From positions 3,263,001 to 3,327,000 of the forward strand of contig NZ_LT629762.1 in the NCBI RefSeq assembly GCF_900105155.1: a stretch of DNA of 64,000 bases, written 5' to 3'. Under the pieces are notes generated by a model. That model was not told where the DNA came from. It made no database searches and saw only the letters and a program-made list of their open reading frames with translations. Within the stretch, counting starts at the first letter, position 1. Each line of letters begins with the position of its first letter. Below, piece by piece: positions 57,441 to 64,000 of the stretch. Position numbers and translations under genes: made by a program. Source of the DNA: Pseudomonas prosekii (GTDB lineage Bacteria > Pseudomonadota > Gammaproteobacteria > Pseudomonadales > Pseudomonadaceae).

Positions 57441-57962
57441 TTAGTGATGCTCTGCCTGCGCCGTTGGCGCAGGCTCATCCTTGGTGACGTGTTTGACCAG
57501 TTTGCCGATGCTCAAACCCTGCAACAGGATCGACGACAGCACCACGATGTAAGTGATGCTCAGGATCAGATCGCGCTCCGGGCCCAGCGGCAACGCCAGG
57601 GCCAGGGCCACCGAAACACCGCCGCGCAAACCACCCCACGTCAAAATCCGGATCGTCCCGCGCGGCACTGTGCGCCAGCGTCGCAGCAACATAATGGCCG
57701 GGGCCACGGTCAGCAGGCGCGACAGCAGAATCGCCAACGCGAGCAAACTCGCCGCCAGCACGTGCAGCCAGTTGAACGGCAGCAGCAACAGTTCCATGCC
57801 GATCAGCGCGAACAGCAGCGCGTTGAGCATGTCATCGAGCAATTCCCAAAATTTTGCCATTCGCATTTTTTTGTCAGTTATTCGGAGTGCCTGTAGAATA
57901 GAAGTTACAGCCAGCTCGCCACGGATTTTGAAAGTGACAATCGTCAAAAAAGGATCGCCCAT
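57441..57962 (-). pseudogene. Truncated Na+/H+ antiporter (CPA1/NhaP type), C-terminal remnant
   Basis: The 173-codon frame matches only the last third of CPA1 antiporters: KFWELLDDMLNALLFALIGME, then TWGGLRGGVSVALALALP and the C-terminal helix. The N-terminal helices are missing. Homology stops near 57870 (about MRMAKFWE), and the remaining codons to 57962 are read from the foreign DNA. The insertion of the recombinase module at this point is the evident cause. A functional transporter is not expected. Its 3' end holds three copies of an AGTGATGCT unit (57410-57452). Confidence 0.88.
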
Positions 57963-58035
57963 TGAAACCTATCCCTTCCGAGCTCTGGCGCCTGATGTGG
58001 TGGAGTTGTTTCAGCGTTGCGCTGAGCGTAGGTAG
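57934..58035 (+). pseudogene. N-terminal fragment of the first recombinase, before an in-frame TAG
   Basis: A GTG frame gives 33 aa (MTIVKKGSPIETYPF...) and ends in TAG at 58033. It is in the same frame as the next gene, and the text on both sides (AERR*VPSTTTLKLL) reads like one protein. The frame overlaps no other gene of the island. It is either the true N-terminus lost through TGG to TAG or an upstream leader peptide; the former is favoured. Confidence 0.45.
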
Positions 58036-58869
58036 GTGCCGTCGACGACGACATTGAAGCTTCTCGAATGCTTTTGTGACATCACCAACCAGCCCTTGTC
58101 TTTCTTGAAGCTTTCGTCGTCAGAGCTGACCCACATCGTTGCGGGTTTTCAAGGAGCGCTGTTCGAACAGGATTTGGTCGGCACGTCTGACGTGACGCGC
58201 GCGAAGATTTCCGTTTATCTGCAAGACATTCTGCTCGAAGCACGTAATTACGTCCCTTCCATGCCGCCGACAGAATGTGGAAGTGGACTAAGAAAAAAAT
58301 ATAATACGAAGTGGAAAAAAATACTTCTTGGGGTTGACCAGCGTAAAGTCAATTATTGGACTGGATGGCCTGTAGAAAACCGTAAAGGCACCAAGTTGTA
58401 TTATCACTTTGCCAATATTCATAACAGTCATGGTCATGACTTTACATCCGGCTTGTATGAGCAGCTACGACTCCATATTTCAGGGTATGGAACTACGCAG
58501 TTAACTATGCCGAATAAGATGGCTGGTTTTCTGAGTCGGAATAGTGATTCCTGGCCTGAATACACGTTTAACGATTCGACAATGATTTACAATTTCTTCT
58601 GGGACTTTAGGGAAAGTTTTTTCATGAGTGGCGAGGCCCAGGGGCTGGATATCGACGCACAAATGAAGACTTGGAATAAGTATATTGGGTTTGTCGAGAA
58701 GATTTTCATTCTTCCAGGCGTATGGGCCGAGCCATTGGGAGGGAAACTGCCGTTAGCACCTGCGAAGCGAATCGATGGTCAGTCGACTAATGTCAGAAAA
58801 AATGATGATGGTGCGGAGGTAAAAGTTAAGCTCGTAATGGAAGTGCCATTACATCTTACTGATGTCTGA
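58036..58869 (+). CDS. N-terminal/core-binding part of the first large tyrosine recombinase
   Basis: A 277 aa frame starting at GTG 58036, which lacks a good ribosome site. It contains no catalytic residues. Mixed helical sequence such as TMIYNFFWDFRESFF and MKTWNKYIGFVEKIF fits the DNA-binding domain that precedes an integrase catalytic domain. It ends in EVPLHLTDV, a phrase expected in mid-protein, and overlaps the next frame by eight bases. I interpret 58036-60211 as one gene broken by a single-base shift at ~58863. Confidence 0.65.
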   Translation: MPSTTTLKLLECFCDITNQPLSFLKLSSSELTHIVAGFQGALFEQDLVGTSDVTRAKISVYLQDILLEARNYVPSMPPTECGSGLRKKYNTKWKKILLGVDQRKVNYWTGWPVENRKGTKLYYHFANIHNSHGHDFTSGLYEQLRLHISGYGTTQLTMPNKMAGFLSRNSDSWPEYTFNDSTMIYNFFWDFRESFFMSGEAQGLDIDAQMKTWNKYIGFVEKIFILPGVWAEPLGGKLPLAPAKRIDGQSTNVRKNDDGAEVKVKLVMEVPLHLTDV

Positions 58870-60211
58870 AGCTATTGAGATATTATTCATTTCCATATCT
58901 AAGCGGCTGAAGATTATTGAAGGATGGGCCAAAGCTCAGATAGCAGATCTATATAGTAGGGTTCTTCGTCGTAAACAGCTCGCTGCGCAGGGGGAGTTGG
59001 TAGATACGACTAAACGGAAGAAGGGGCACCTACTAATAATCCCCAATATTTGCTGTATTTTCGAGACCTACGGCTATGGAGAGCCTTACAGCCACTACGC
59101 TTCCTTGTCAGTGGATACAAAAGATTCTCAGACTCCGGCTTCTGATTTAGCTAGCTATATGGGGATGCCACTGACGGGGAGTCTAATGCCATTTAAGCTC
59201 CTAATTATTCTAAGGCATCCGATAATTACGTCGGAGTTTCTGGGTGATTTCGACCTTTGGAATAAGCAGGGGCAGAGATCTGGATACGTACTGGACGGGT
59301 CGGTATATAAGCTGGTGGGGTACAAGGATCGTAAGGGGGCAGGAAGGTCTGAACAAAAAATCACGCTAACCTCAGAAACTAAAGCTTTGGTCGACCAAAT
59401 TATTGAGATCACTGCGCCCCTACGTGAGTATCTGAAATCACAGGGTGATCCCTCATGGAGGAAGCTGTTCATTACATGCGGCAACGCATTTTCACCGCCT
59501 GTCAAAAGCACCCTAACCCCGTGGTCGAGGTCGACACTTAAACCTGGTACGTATTTGAGAAATAATCTTTTAGCTCAGTTCCGCCCTCATACGGACATGC
59601 CTGAAGATGATCTCGTTAAGTTTTTGGAGATGGTGAGTGCGTCTTCCGTACGCGCATCCAGAGTAACAGAGATATTCATTAAGACGCATAGCGCTGAAAC
59701 TACATCTCAGGCTTTAGGCCATGATAGCTACGATCCTAACCTCATGGATCACTATCTGCCCAAGGTGATTATCGATTTCCTGCATGAAAGGCGTATGCGA
59801 GTATTTAATAAGGTCTTAATTTGTCATAGTCTTAAAGATAGCCCGTTTTTATTTCGGGCGAGCAATTTTTCAAGCGTGGATGAATTAGACACTTTCCTAG
59901 TAAATCATGCTTTTGGAGATATTCCTGCGTATCTTCAAGATCCAGAGGGTCGTCATGAAAAGCTTGAGAACGACGGGACTGTATATGCGTTAGTGTCTGC
60001 CGATATTTTGAGCGTGCTGCTCTCGATAAAATTAGCTGTTGAACAAGCGCCACCCAATCAGAAGGTTAATGCTAAGGCAGTCTACTGGGCGAGTTACGCA
60101 GGCTTTCTTGAGGGAGAGATCAGTAAGCATCGAGATGTCACTTATCGTAGCGATCTACACAAGGCGTCACTAACAGCAAGCGCAGCGTCAATGGAGAGGT
60201 TTGTTTATTAA
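58862..60211 (+). CDS. Catalytic part of the first large tyrosine recombinase
   Basis: A 449 aa frame with a degenerate but readable tyrosine recombinase site: Arg in ILRHPIITSEFLGDF, Lys in the turn KDRKGAGRSEQK, Arg264 in SSVRASR (box II His replaced by Ser), His287 in QALGHDS and the likely nucleophile Tyr298 in LMDHYLPK. The recombinase probably helps integrate or excise the island. In the GMT arrangement this is the GmtY position; I do not assign the symbol. AT-rich codon use differs from the core. Confidence 0.75.
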   Translation: MSEAIEILFISISKRLKIIEGWAKAQIADLYSRVLRRKQLAAQGELVDTTKRKKGHLLIIPNICCIFETYGYGEPYSHYASLSVDTKDSQTPASDLASYMGMPLTGSLMPFKLLIILRHPIITSEFLGDFDLWNKQGQRSGYVLDGSVYKLVGYKDRKGAGRSEQKITLTSETKALVDQIIEITAPLREYLKSQGDPSWRKLFITCGNAFSPPVKSTLTPWSRSTLKPGTYLRNNLLAQFRPHTDMPEDDLVKFLEMVSASSVRASRVTEIFIKTHSAETTSQALGHDSYDPNLMDHYLPKVIIDFLHERRMRVFNKVLICHSLKDSPFLFRASNFSSVDELDTFLVNHAFGDIPAYLQDPEGRHEKLENDGTVYALVSADILSVLLSIKLAVEQAPPNQKVNAKAVYWASYAGFLEGEISKHRDVTYRSDLHKASLTASAASMERFVY

Positions 60212-62294
60212 TGCTCCATCTAAACTTGGGTTCCTCAACGAGCCTCGCGTGGCACCGGCAGAAGCGTTCCGTAAGGCTTCTTGGCTAACCAATAATTTTA
60301 ATGCCTCCATCTGGAGCGTGAATTTCAACGGTGATCCTATCCTGCTCAACTGGAAGGTAGCCCTAGACAACAACTCATACCTTACCGATGACGAAAACCT
60401 AGATCTGTTGAACGGTCTTAAATACGCGCTCATTGGCGCTACGCGAAATAGCCTGGTTGAAATGGCAAATTCTCAAAGTGTTGAGACATTAAGAAGGAAG
60501 TTTCACGCCGCCGTGGGTGTTATTGACTGTCTGCTAATTCACGCACATGAGCTTAAACTTTCAAGTGCCGGATTGGCAGGCTTGTCTGAAGGCGATATGA
60601 AATGGATCCTAAATAAGCTGTCTTCAGAGTCCTCCGTGGCTGAAGCGCTGTATGATTGGTCAGAAAAATTGTGTGAGTATGCTCTAGCGCTCTTGGATGA
60701 AATACCAGTCGCGACGATTGCTTCCATATTGGAAGAGAATCCTTCGATGTCAGAGATAAGTTCTACCCAGCTCGAGTCTAACGAGCTTAATGTTTCCGTT
60801 GATAATATTCCACGTATTCGGGCCGCTTTATATCATAAAGGTCACTACGACGGACATAGAGGTGCTGGCTATACAGTAAACTCTGTACGCATCTCAGCCG
60901 AAGTTTACCCAAATACTATCCGTGGGGACATGGCCAAGCCGAGGCATGAAATTCTTAGTTTTTATCCGCTTGGTGAGTCCTATAAGCGTGAGATGGAGGG
61001 AGTAAAGGTTACTGCTAGGTCGGGAAGTCTCATGGCCGAATCCCAGTACAGGCTATTTTACAATTTTTTGTATGGAATGGGGTTGCTCAAGAAACTTGGA
61101 GTGCCAGGGCCCAATGAGCGAGTTTTGGATAGAATTAAAGGTTACATGCCAGAGCTAGCCAAACCTGGTCGTTATGTGACAGTGCCGTCCGGCACGATTT
61201 TTAAATTATTCAAAGGTGCTGTCGAGTTTCATTACGAGTTGGGCCCTCTCGTTATTGAGGGGTTTTGCAGGTTGGCTCGATACTGTTATGAGCATGACAA
61301 AACGCTTACAAGCCTAACCGATGAGCAGGTTGTTTCAATTGTTGGCAGTGATTTGGAACATCACGGTGTGAAAAAACTGGGGCTTGGTTGTAGAAATACA
61401 AGTGATGCCGATGGCAGTGGTCTTGAAAGTCGAAAGGGAACGAGGGAGAACTATTTTGAGCGGCTAAGATCCAATGCAGGCTTGCTTGAACTTGTCTATG
61501 TTTATATTGGTGCTATTCAATTTGTTGTTGGTTTGCTTATGGCTCGCCGAATAGATGAGCTTTTGCAGATCCCGTCGGCCCGAGCATTCGACTCCACGAA
61601 TTCTTGGCTGATGTTCATGAGAGAAAAGAGCACAACCAATACGTATGGTCTCCGGAAATACGACGCAAGGCCTATTGATCCTCTTGCGGTGCAGATGCTT
61701 GGGCAATTAGTACGCCTTCAGGAGGAACTCATCAATGCTGGTTTCTCGGCGGAAGCTCCTACTATATTCTCCGTTCCTTCTTTGCATGGAAGAAAGGTAA
61801 TATATTCTGCCACAAAAATGAGCATGAATACATGCTTCGACTTTTTGTGTGCCTACTTTGAGAGCGAAGTTAATGACGTAGGGCTTCGGTATTATATCAG
61901 GCAGCACCAGTTGCGCCGTGTAGCGGCCCTGCTGTTCTTTCACGCATATGGGAAAGGACGCATAGATACACTTCGTTGGATTCTCGGGCATAACGATATT
62001 GAGCATGCATGGAGGTACATTACAGATGCCACAGATGGCGCATCCCTCCGTGGGGCGGAAGCTCAAATCATTGCTGAGAAATTCTTCACTGGTGATGTGC
62101 ATAACTATAAATCGTTACGTGCGTTGATGAAGGAGCAGTTCGGAACGGATGATGTGCGTCTTGTAGATCAAGAATCCTTTTCGGAGCATCTGGAGCATTT
62201 GATGAGTAAAGGCATTGTCAAATTTGAGCCCGCATTTGTTCTTGGCGCTTATGGCAAGGAAATGCAGGTTCTTGTTCACGTAAAGGGGACGTAA
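60201..62294 (+). CDS. Second large tyrosine recombinase/integrase (GmtZ/TnpB-like)
   Basis: A 697 aa frame from TTG 60201, which overlaps the previous stop; the start is uncertain. All catalytic residues are present: Arg449/450 (LMARRIDELLQ), Lys in MREKSTTN, His569-x-x-Arg572 (RQHQLRRVAAL), His597 (ILGHNDI) and Tyr606 (AWRYI), with the usual nine-residue His-to-Tyr spacing. The first ~400 residues are unlike short integrases and may bind DNA or partner proteins. It is the intact-looking member of the module. Confidence 0.82.
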   Translation: MFINAPSKLGFLNEPRVAPAEAFRKASWLTNNFNASIWSVNFNGDPILLNWKVALDNNSYLTDDENLDLLNGLKYALIGATRNSLVEMANSQSVETLRRKFHAAVGVIDCLLIHAHELKLSSAGLAGLSEGDMKWILNKLSSESSVAEALYDWSEKLCEYALALLDEIPVATIASILEENPSMSEISSTQLESNELNVSVDNIPRIRAALYHKGHYDGHRGAGYTVNSVRISAEVYPNTIRGDMAKPRHEILSFYPLGESYKREMEGVKVTARSGSLMAESQYRLFYNFLYGMGLLKKLGVPGPNERVLDRIKGYMPELAKPGRYVTVPSGTIFKLFKGAVEFHYELGPLVIEGFCRLARYCYEHDKTLTSLTDEQVVSIVGSDLEHHGVKKLGLGCRNTSDADGSGLESRKGTRENYFERLRSNAGLLELVYVYIGAIQFVVGLLMARRIDELLQIPSARAFDSTNSWLMFMREKSTTNTYGLRKYDARPIDPLAVQMLGQLVRLQEELINAGFSAEAPTIFSVPSLHGRKVIYSATKMSMNTCFDFLCAYFESEVNDVGLRYYIRQHQLRRVAALLFFHAYGKGRIDTLRWILGHNDIEHAWRYITDATDGASLRGAEAQIIAEKFFTGDVHNYKSLRALMKEQFGTDDVRLVDQESFSEHLEHLMSKGIVKFEPAFVLGAYGKEMQVLVHVKGT

Positions 62295-62296
62295 TC

Positions 62297-62560
62297 ATGG
62301 GTAAGCCTAGGTCGGAAATTCAAGTTTACAATCAGTCAATCAAGGCGCGGCAGGTTCTGCTAGAGGGCGTACTTGCCGATGTTAAAAAATACTTCTCAAA
62401 TGAGGTTGTTACTTCCGCTCTAAAAAATCAAGGAGCTTTGGCTTCCCTTTCTTACAAGTTCGATTTGGCTGGACAGCATTACGCTATCGACTCAACGAGT
62501 CTGAACACCCTCAAAAAAAATCCGATGAATTACTTGGTCATCACGGTTTCGCAGGGTTAG
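62297..62560 (+). CDS. Small gene of the recombinase module, first part (GmtX/TnpC-like position)
   Basis: An 87 aa frame that begins two bases after the second recombinase stop, so it is coupled to it. At 62513 it meets a run of eight A. Read in the -1 frame from there, it continues as LKKKSDELLGHHGFAGLERLRCVAKDAIAAYAERG into the next frame, which looks far more protein-like than its own end (NPMNYLVITVSQG). I take both frames as one ~192 aa protein made by slippage or broken by loss of one A. Confidence 0.65.
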   Translation: MGKPRSEIQVYNQSIKARQVLLEGVLADVKKYFSNEVVTSALKNQGALASLSYKFDLAGQHYAIDSTSLNTLKKNPMNYLVITVSQG

Positions 62561-62574
62561 AGCGTCTTAGATGC

Positions 62575-62874
62575 GTGGCTAAGGATGCAATTGCCGCGTA
62601 TGCCGAAAGGGGCAACAAACCCACCAAGAAGACCAAGCATGGGCTAGAGCAAATTAATAGCGAGTTAGAATGCGCGGTGGTCGCACTGCGCCGCGCTAAT
62701 TTCAGGTTGCTTCAAGGGCTTTCCACTGCTATCTCGGGAATCAAAGAAACTAGGGATGGTTCTAGTGAGGCTATTAGAAATAAAAGCGCTAGCGAAGCCG
62801 TAAATGCACTGTTGGCAATAGTCTCGCTTAATGAATCTCCTTTTGATGTGATTCCATCTCACGATAATATCTGA
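62575..62874 (+). CDS. Small gene of the recombinase module, second part, ended by the IS
   Basis: A 99 aa frame from GTG 62575; the coding frame itself is open back to the A-run at 62513. It is a Lys-rich helical protein (KDAIAAYAERGNKPTKKTKHGLEQ) with a coiled segment. The stop TGA (62872-62874) is the first three bases of the IS end, so the native C-terminus may be lost. Function unknown; in Tn554-type modules the third gene influences recombination orientation and efficiency. Confidence 0.6.
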   Translation: MAKDAIAAYAERGNKPTKKTKHGLEQINSELECAVVALRRANFRLLQGLSTAISGIKETRDGSSEAIRNKSASEAVNALLAIVSLNESPFDVIPSHDNI

Positions 62875-62889
62875 ATCGCCCCGGGTTTT

Positions 62890-63771
62890 CTAGACACTCT
62901 CCAGGCTCGCTGCGTAACGCTTTTCAAACTCTACCGGTGACAGCTGATTGTTGAAACTGTGGCGTCGTTTTGGGTTGTAAAACATCTCGATGTAATCGAA
63001 CACATCATCCCGAGCATCCTGGCGTGTAGTGTAGATTTTACGCTTGATCCGTTCCCGCTTTAGCAGCTGGAAAAAGCTCTCCGCCACAGCGTTGTCGTGG
63101 CAGTTACCTCGACGACTCATGCTGGCCACCAGGTTGTTAGCTTTCAAGAAGCTTCGCCAGTCTGAGCTGCTGTACTGACTGCCTTGATCTGAGTGGATCA
63201 TCACCTCTTGCTTCGGCTTACGTCTCCAAACCGCCATCAGCAGTGCATCAATGGCTACGTCGCTGGTCATCTGCGACTTCATTGACCAACCAATGATCTG
63301 GCGTGAAAACAGATCGAGCACCACGGCCAAATACAGCCAGCCTTCATATGTTCGGATGTAGGTAATGTCTGTGACCCAGACTTTGTTGGGTTCTCTGACA
63401 TCGAATTGGCGCTTCAGTAAGTTCGGTGAGGCAACGGCTGGTTTACCGCCATATTTTCCCGGCCTCCGTCGATACCCAGTCTGAGAACGTAAACCCTCAA
63501 GGCGCATCAACCTAGCCACCCGGTGACGGCCACAGCTCTCACCAACCTCTCGCAGGTCATCATGGATCTTGCGATAGCCATAAACGCCACCGCTTTCCAG
63601 CCAGGAGTGTTTGATCAATCCAAGCAGTCGCTGATCGTCCTTGGCTCGCGCAGATTTTGGTTCTGATAGCCACGCGTAGTAGCCGCTGGGATGAACCTTG
63701 AGCGTCAGGCAAAGCCGTCGAATCGCGTAATGACCCGATTGCTGCTTAATAAAGGCGTACTTCAGCCGCAC
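62890..63771 (-). CDS. IS3-family transposase OrfB
   Basis: A 293 aa integrase-core protein. The DDE residues are visible: Asp in VWVTDITYI, Asp in IHSDQGSQY and Glu in NAVAESFFQ. The N-terminal HTH_21 region (LMRLEGLRSQTGYRRRPGKY) is present. It starts inside the end of orfA in another frame, the usual IS3 arrangement for frameshift expression. The frame is intact, so the IS could be active. Confidence 0.95.
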   Translation of the reverse strand: MRLKYAFIKQQSGHYAIRRLCLTLKVHPSGYYAWLSEPKSARAKDDQRLLGLIKHSWLESGGVYGYRKIHDDLREVGESCGRHRVARLMRLEGLRSQTGYRRRPGKYGGKPAVASPNLLKRQFDVREPNKVWVTDITYIRTYEGWLYLAVVLDLFSRQIIGWSMKSQMTSDVAIDALLMAVWRRKPKQEVMIHSDQGSQYSSSDWRSFLKANNLVASMSRRGNCHDNAVAESFFQLLKRERIKRKIYTTRQDARDDVFDYIEMFYNPKRRHSFNNQLSPVEFEKRYAASLESV

Positions 63772-64000
63772 TCCTTGGCAAAGTACGCGGCGGCCTTTTT
63801 TAAGATGTCTCGCTCCTCCGTCACCCGTTTCAGCTCGGCACGTAGACGACGAACCTCAGCGCTTTGATCATCCTCCTCAACGCGCTGTTCTTGGGGCTTG
63901 GTGTAGCGCTTAACCCAGGCATAGAGGCTGTGCACGGACACACCCAATCGTGCAGCCACCTCCGAGACAGGAAGCTGCTTTTCGGTCACTTGCTTGACCG
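63762..64000 (-). CDS. IS3-family transposase OrfA (5' end outside window)
   Basis: The helix-turn-helix protein of the IS. At least 78 codons are visible and the frame is open through the window edge; the internal GTG at 63989 is not a real start. It has the HTH sequence SEVAARLGVSVHSLYAWVKRY, then a leucine-zipper helix (EVRRLRAELKRVTEERDILKKA) ending AAYFAKECG. The AAAAAAG slippery site lies near the end of the frame. Confidence 0.92.
   Translation of the reverse strand, partial: VKQVTEKQLPVSEVAARLGVSVHSLYAWVKRYTKPQEQRVEEDDQSAEVRRLRAELKRVTEERDILKKAAAYFAKECG

Follow-up and report, generated by a model that had tools for sequence, protein, structure and literature searches.

The transposon Tn554 inserts site-specifically by means of several recombinases. 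GInt elements, also called a Tn6571-family transposon (PMC10121019), have an operon, ginABCD, that ends with a small gene, their cargo starts at ginD, and their reported targets are an ABC transporter gene, ssb, and a ribonucleotide reductase gene (PMC5385486); neither the word "hrpB" nor the word "helicase" occurs in the main text of that paper. Strand-biased circularizing integrative elements (SE) carry their genes in the order intA-tfp-intB-srap (PMC10214605, PMC9345347). Here, a locus of Pseudomonas prosekii is compared with such systems, with SE and GInt by their published descriptions only. The locus lies in a stretch of 64,000 nucleotides (the window), bases 3263001-3327000 of a one-contig 6.09-Mb genome that is given as 100% complete and is labeled G000; other G-numbers are labels of compared genomes and L-numbers are labels of loci. 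With high probability, this locus is what remains, after decay, of a genomic island that integrates site-specifically, by recombination at a fixed core of ~6 bp within a CPA1 antiporter gene, and whose intact kin carry a four-gene module (g1 to g4, hereafter the quartet). A fixed insertion site, two ends that share an imperfect inverted match and a ~6-bp core (by eye), and four conserved, closely coupled genes were found. The features in the window are as follows.

57441..57851, minus strand: C-terminal half of the interrupted CPA1-type Na+/H+ antiporter gene (PF00999, E 1.2e-16; both halves align to the intact genes of G016 and G019)
57845..57851, no strand: attL core, between the chromosome arm and the element end (by eye; empty sites of G016, G019, and G017, occupied sites of G005 and G050)
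57852..57933, no strand: left terminal region of the element (by eye, imperfect inverted match to the right end; ends of G000, G005, and G050 compared)
57934..60211, plus strand: remnant of gene 1, encoding a large degenerate tyrosine recombinase of 762 aa in relatives and here interrupted by a nonsense codon (58033) and a frameshift (58862), with a premature stop at 60209
60201..62294, plus strand: gene 2, a large tyrosine recombinase with an open frame and its usual start codon lost (92% and 90% identity to G005 and G050, respectively)
62297..62871, plus strand: remnant of gene 3, a small protein (201 aa in relatives; split in an A-run at 62512 and truncated by the insertion sequence)
62872..64000, continuing to 64102, minus strand: IS3-family insertion sequence (IS) of 1231 bp (NF033516, E 5.8e-109; 9 near-identical copies in G000, L051-L059)

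An earlier note, made from the letters of the window, had placed an island border inside an antiporter gene, and alignment bears this out. The intact genes of G016 and G019 cover both antiporter halves with a 7-bp overlap, and they align to the two halves across a gap, so the insertion in G000 spans ~6.35 kb (57,845 to window-equivalent 64,202); the other half lies outside the window, beginning 203 bp after its end (window-equivalent 64203). Comparison with strains that keep an intact antiporter gene, which the note had proposed, fixed the left end and the target site through the empty sites of G016, G019, and G017 and moved the border from 57868 to ~57,845-57,852. The ORF (open reading frame) of the antiporter half extends to 57962, inside the element, and the attL core of G000 is one base longer than that of G005 (a single-base indel at 57847). 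The right end takes up the ~100 bp next to the IS, a little outside the window, and is followed by the rest of the antiporter gene; it matches G005 at 92% over 228 bp, chromosome included, and G050 at 79%. Repeated insertion into a single core site, which is occupied in G000, G005, and G050, together with empty sites in relatives is the mark of site-specific multi-recombinase islands and is what was found here.

The insertions at the same antiporter position measure 39.4 kb in G005 and ~60 kb in G050. When G005 and G000 were compared in 300-base windows, the antiporter-side flank was 82-88% identical, whereas identity within the element was 97-99.7% (58004-60404), 86-89% (60405-61904), and 95-96% beyond. 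The element has thus moved from lineage to lineage or undergone exchange at a fixed site. To identify the cargo of these two islands, 17 different proteins were picked out of 89 ORFs and scanned, 10 in each library and 3 of them in both. The cargo so detected includes, in G005, arsenic genes, a CBASS cyclase, and a Gabija gene of the GajA type and, in G050, copper genes, GajA and GajB, and ORFs that start like the G005 arsenic genes. A spare antiporter was found in neither island at E <= 1e-3; only the two gene halves were matched.

Beside the left end, intact modules have the order g1 (large pseudo-recombinase), g2 (large tyrosine recombinase), g3 (small protein), and g4 (ordinary tyrosine recombinase). 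The two large recombinase-type genes and the small coupled gene pointed out in the note are thus present, and genes 1-3 are kept together as a unit in relatives, but the "trio" it described becomes a set of four in intact members. Where gene 3 is present and followed by 1.5 kb or more of sequence (73 loci), a fourth gene starts within 150 bases of the gene 3 end in 70; it is absent in G000, L134, and L135. The g4 protein of G005 matches PF00589 (E 1.4e-12), and residues R240, K269, H348, R351, and Y403 of g4 are conserved in 70/70 rows, which represent 51 distinct sequences, some genomes being counted twice under two names. In gene 2, R450, K476, H569, R572, W593, and Y606 are invariant across the alignment of 22 sequences, two of which have the second His altered. 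Gene 1 keeps the tyrosine and lacks the first Arg and the His (alignment of 14 sequences), and the 16 best PDB matches to its predicted model (mean pLDDT 78; Foldseek) are all tyrosine recombinases, XerH first; 5JJV, an XerH entry, is named among the templates for the SE protein Tfp (PMC10214605). The same four-gene order appears in the deposited annotation of Pseudomonas and Providencia plasmids, and ORF sizes and order agree in 18/18 loci of more distant relatives (L151-L168). When the fourth ORFs of five distant loci were searched against NCBIfam, a recombinase was clear in three, weak in one, and without a match in L151, whose fourth ORF matches the g4 profile.

Gene 2 was matched in 45/298 genomes of the genus at E <= 0.001 and in 25/298 at E <= 1e-60 (G000 included), and because of the latter count the locus is not a chance arrangement. 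When genome contigs were scanned with gene 1, 57 loci came up, from Pseudomonas and from further Gamma- and Betaproteobacteria; another match is in a metagenome-assembled genome labeled Planctomycetaceae and is identical to the Stutzerimonas copy. Of 54 distinct gene 2 sequences, 24 have their site in or beside hrpB, 5 at comM, 4 at the antiporter (with L094 and L095 assigned there by the tree and a weaker match), 3 at a benE-like gene, and 2 at a pncA-like gene; 16 have no assigned site. The antiporter, benE, and pncA groups each form one clade with a support of 100/100, and in the antiporter group the target goes with lineage. Island size is about 34-64 kb in the 14 that were measured. With core, ends, and targets now defined, the quartet islands emerge as a group of cargo islands that is frequent in Pseudomonas, present in other Gamma- and Betaproteobacteria, and unnamed by the curated models searched. 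By eye, the L151 quartet adjoins DNA resembling a cation/proton antiporter gene. Quartets of another clade (L136, L140, and L246) adjoin a class A beta-lactamase gene, which is annotated in L246 and was seen by eye in L136 and L140.

Could the locus be, or have been, a GInt in a broad sense? This is a matter of classification, compatible with a decayed site-specific island, and is regarded here as possible though doubtful. By description, GInt has the same content, stands at one end of a cargo island, and is site-specific (PMC5385486); an operon of this type, made up of one small and three recombinase-type genes at an end of the island, was found in the intact relatives and not in the window, which lacks g4. 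However, GInt cargo begins at the small gene, whereas the small gene of the quartet is third and the ordinary recombinase is last.

In G005 and G050, the closest relatives, the homologs are uninterrupted (762, 695-697, and 201 aa for genes 1, 2, and 3), and against them the three lesions reported in the earlier note prove real: the nonsense TAG at 58033 within the gene 1 frame, a one-base indel at 58862 that splits gene 1 (reported as a shift at ~58863), and, in the A-run at 62512, a one-base indel that splits gene 3 (reported at 62513). Programmed frameshifting at the two frame breaks was rejected because G005 and G050 carry the same genes uninterrupted. Overlooked in the note were a substitution at 60209, by which gene 1 stops four codons early and gene 2 loses its usual start codon; the IS at 62872-64102, whose start removes the last codons of gene 3; and the loss of the fourth gene and the cargo, a large deletion relative to the relatives. 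It is unlikely, to a degree that leaves little room for it, that these lesions are assembly errors and that the three genes still function: single-base indels account for two of the point lesions, with one falling in an A-run, a common type of error, but the nonsense codon at 58033 and the change at 60209 are substitutions, and a genome assembled in one contig shows structural changes as well, namely the IS and the missing g4 and cargo.

Among the eight IS copies with flanks read (the window copy, which has no target duplication, included, and the ninth, L059, left out), one has a target duplication; the lack of such a duplication consequently failed as proof of an IS-driven deletion, since 7/8 copies are without one. 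Cargo had been expected to the right of the window, but beyond 64000 there are only the remainder of the IS, the right end, and the antiporter gene; because the latter two come ~100 bp after the IS, no cargo is left in G000. The suggestion of defense cargo holds in part, as none remains in G000 while defense and metal-resistance genes are present in the same-site islands of G005 and G050. A second gene 2 match was not found in the G000 genome, and with g4 lost and g1 and g3 broken, the element would be immobile by itself; the note was right to call it disabled. The window thus shows an island dying while its ends remain. Nothing spoke for a prophage origin: a search of PHROGs yielded a single weak hit, of an integrase to gene 2 (E 0.0084), and nothing else below E 0.09, and a set of 50,697 phage records contained no match to gene 2 of G005 at E 1e-3.

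That the locus is a GMT element or a Tn554 transposon, as the note had proposed, is scarcely credible, the look-alike features (several recombinases, site specificity, defense genes in relatives, and a g4 distantly homologous to TnpA) being outweighed by the lack of GmtY at the locus, of significant similarity between g1-g4 and the GMT proteins of the genus, and of significant Tnp matches to g1-g3. Like GMT elements as far as these are described, the quartet islands are gammaproteobacterial islands with recombinases and defense cargo. The NCBIfam search of the window's pieces gave no match at E <= 1, that of six relatives gave a single weak and unrelated match, and the GmtY model NF040693 had no match at the window locus. 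The same model exceeded its cut-off in 22/296 genomes of the genus, where it marks true GMT operons (L169-L187); in the seven loci examined, a GmtY of 451-488 aa is followed by an ORF of 862-1373 aa and then one of 196-224 aa, sizes that differ from those of the quartet. Profiles of g1-g4 reached best E-values of 0.085 and 0.18 against GMT proteins in two comparisons (the latter for a 12-sequence set), with an hhalign probability of <= 1%, and GMT identity was rejected at the sensitivity of these searches. Membership in Tn554 was likewise rejected, since homologs of TnpA, TnpB, and TnpC in that order were not found. Likeness to TnpA is limited to g4 of intact relatives (45 bits; tblastn E 2e-4), where it is the last gene, and g4 is absent from the window; g1-g3 gave a best E-value of 0.053 at 1.2 bits against TnpA, TnpB, and TnpC (same 12-sequence set). 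The quartet differs from Tn554 further in its extra 762-aa protein, its large cargo, and its other targets.

The site, ends, and coupled genes described above, together with experiments on GInt and SE elements (PMC5385486, PMC10214605), suggest how a decayed site-specific island of this kind might once have worked. The g2 and g4 proteins would carry out strand exchange, and g1 and g3 may bind DNA, act as architectural partners, or set direction, with the island moving as a circle, as GInt and SE elements do. In G000, the IS3-family copy with an adjoining deletion would have removed g4 and the cargo, leaving both ends. Several observations weigh against parts of this account. No movement of the island was observed. 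The elements of G000 and G005 are mosaic, and therefore exchange between copies, not insertion alone, shaped both. The role of the IS in the deletion is only inferred because target duplication is rare (1/8) among its copies. Fold matches to gene 1 are weak, with a best Foldseek E-value of 0.0074, none at E <= 0.001, and TM-scores no higher than 0.45 (by target) and 0.23 (by query). The g3 model is of low confidence (pLDDT 49) and too poor for a structure search, so the role of g3 is read from its position. Finally, the target is not always bound to lineage, as the tree needs 4 changes for the hrpB group and 3 for comM.

The hrpB branch allows a closer view of how such islands treat their target. 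The insertion point lies inside DEFHERSLDADLAL, at His-Glu codons, and terminal regions comparable to those of the antiporter islands were found in 12 hrpB islands. In 12/12 traced hrpB islands (among L191-L216; sizes of roughly 34-64 kb), an N-terminal piece of hrpB stands at the far island end, and in 12/12 a second, full-length hrpB lies between this piece and the quartet. The Glu of the target core is replaced in 12/12 of these island copies (by Leu in ten, Ser in one, and Ile in one), and most have further changes adjoining it; the scan also took in 25 other hrpB copies, that of G000 and L220-L243 (from a genus set of about 295), and DE(F/Y)HERSL is kept in every one. Three genomes, G288 (L217), G270 (L218), and G082 (L219), have two hrpB matches each, one of them altered, with no quartet detected; other recombinases or lost modules may share the trick there. 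A further altered hrpB outside the quartet island was seen in G255 (L211) and G217 (L212), hinting at stacked islands at the hrpB site. In a midpoint-rooted HrpB tree, 14 altered copies (L211 and L212 included; row L103_t is a second pick of the island copy) occupy four places, with one pair nested close to ordinary genes of its host group, and repeated change of the hrpB core is therefore favored, although Leu in several HrpB clades could come from one origin and have spread with the copies. A carried spare target has a precedent, since SE-6283 is reported to carry a bcp homolog while integrating in, and breaking, bcp (PMC9345347). Islands in hrpB are mentioned in passing in one paper (PMC8373256), and no report of an altered target core was found in the open-access library searched. 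The case is about evenly balanced for a broader proposal: that quartet elements are an undescribed group of site-specific islands, set apart by published descriptions through a core that is a cyclic shift of the SE order, and that their hrpB-breaking members bring a full-length hrpB that is altered in the codons under the recombination core (Glu of DEFHERSL to Leu, Ser, or Ile) and otherwise still HrpB, at three or four separate positions in the HrpB tree, as an insertion-proof target replacement that would protect host and element. The hrpB branch is a direct test case for whether a mobile element recodes its target gene against a second insertion.

Set beside the described systems, the quartet island resembles GInt in having three recombinase-type proteins, one of them without the first arginine, plus a small protein on a cargo island, and in its target-site specificity and imperfect repeats, which in GInt accompany 6-nt staggered cuts (PMC5385486, by description); the two differ in order, GInt having its small gene last and the quartet running large degenerate, large active, small, ordinary. 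With SE elements it shares, by description, the same four kinds of protein (an ordinary recombinase, a recombinase-fold protein, a large recombinase, and a small protein) and a 6-bp spacer at the ends (PMC10214605, PMC9345347), and it differs in that its genes form a cyclic shift of the SE order, namely tfp-like, intB-like, srap-like, and intA-like, with the ordinary recombinase last and not first. By analogy, the quartet island is taken to work like a GInt or SE island and to be related to both in kind, with a gene order that departs from those published for either.

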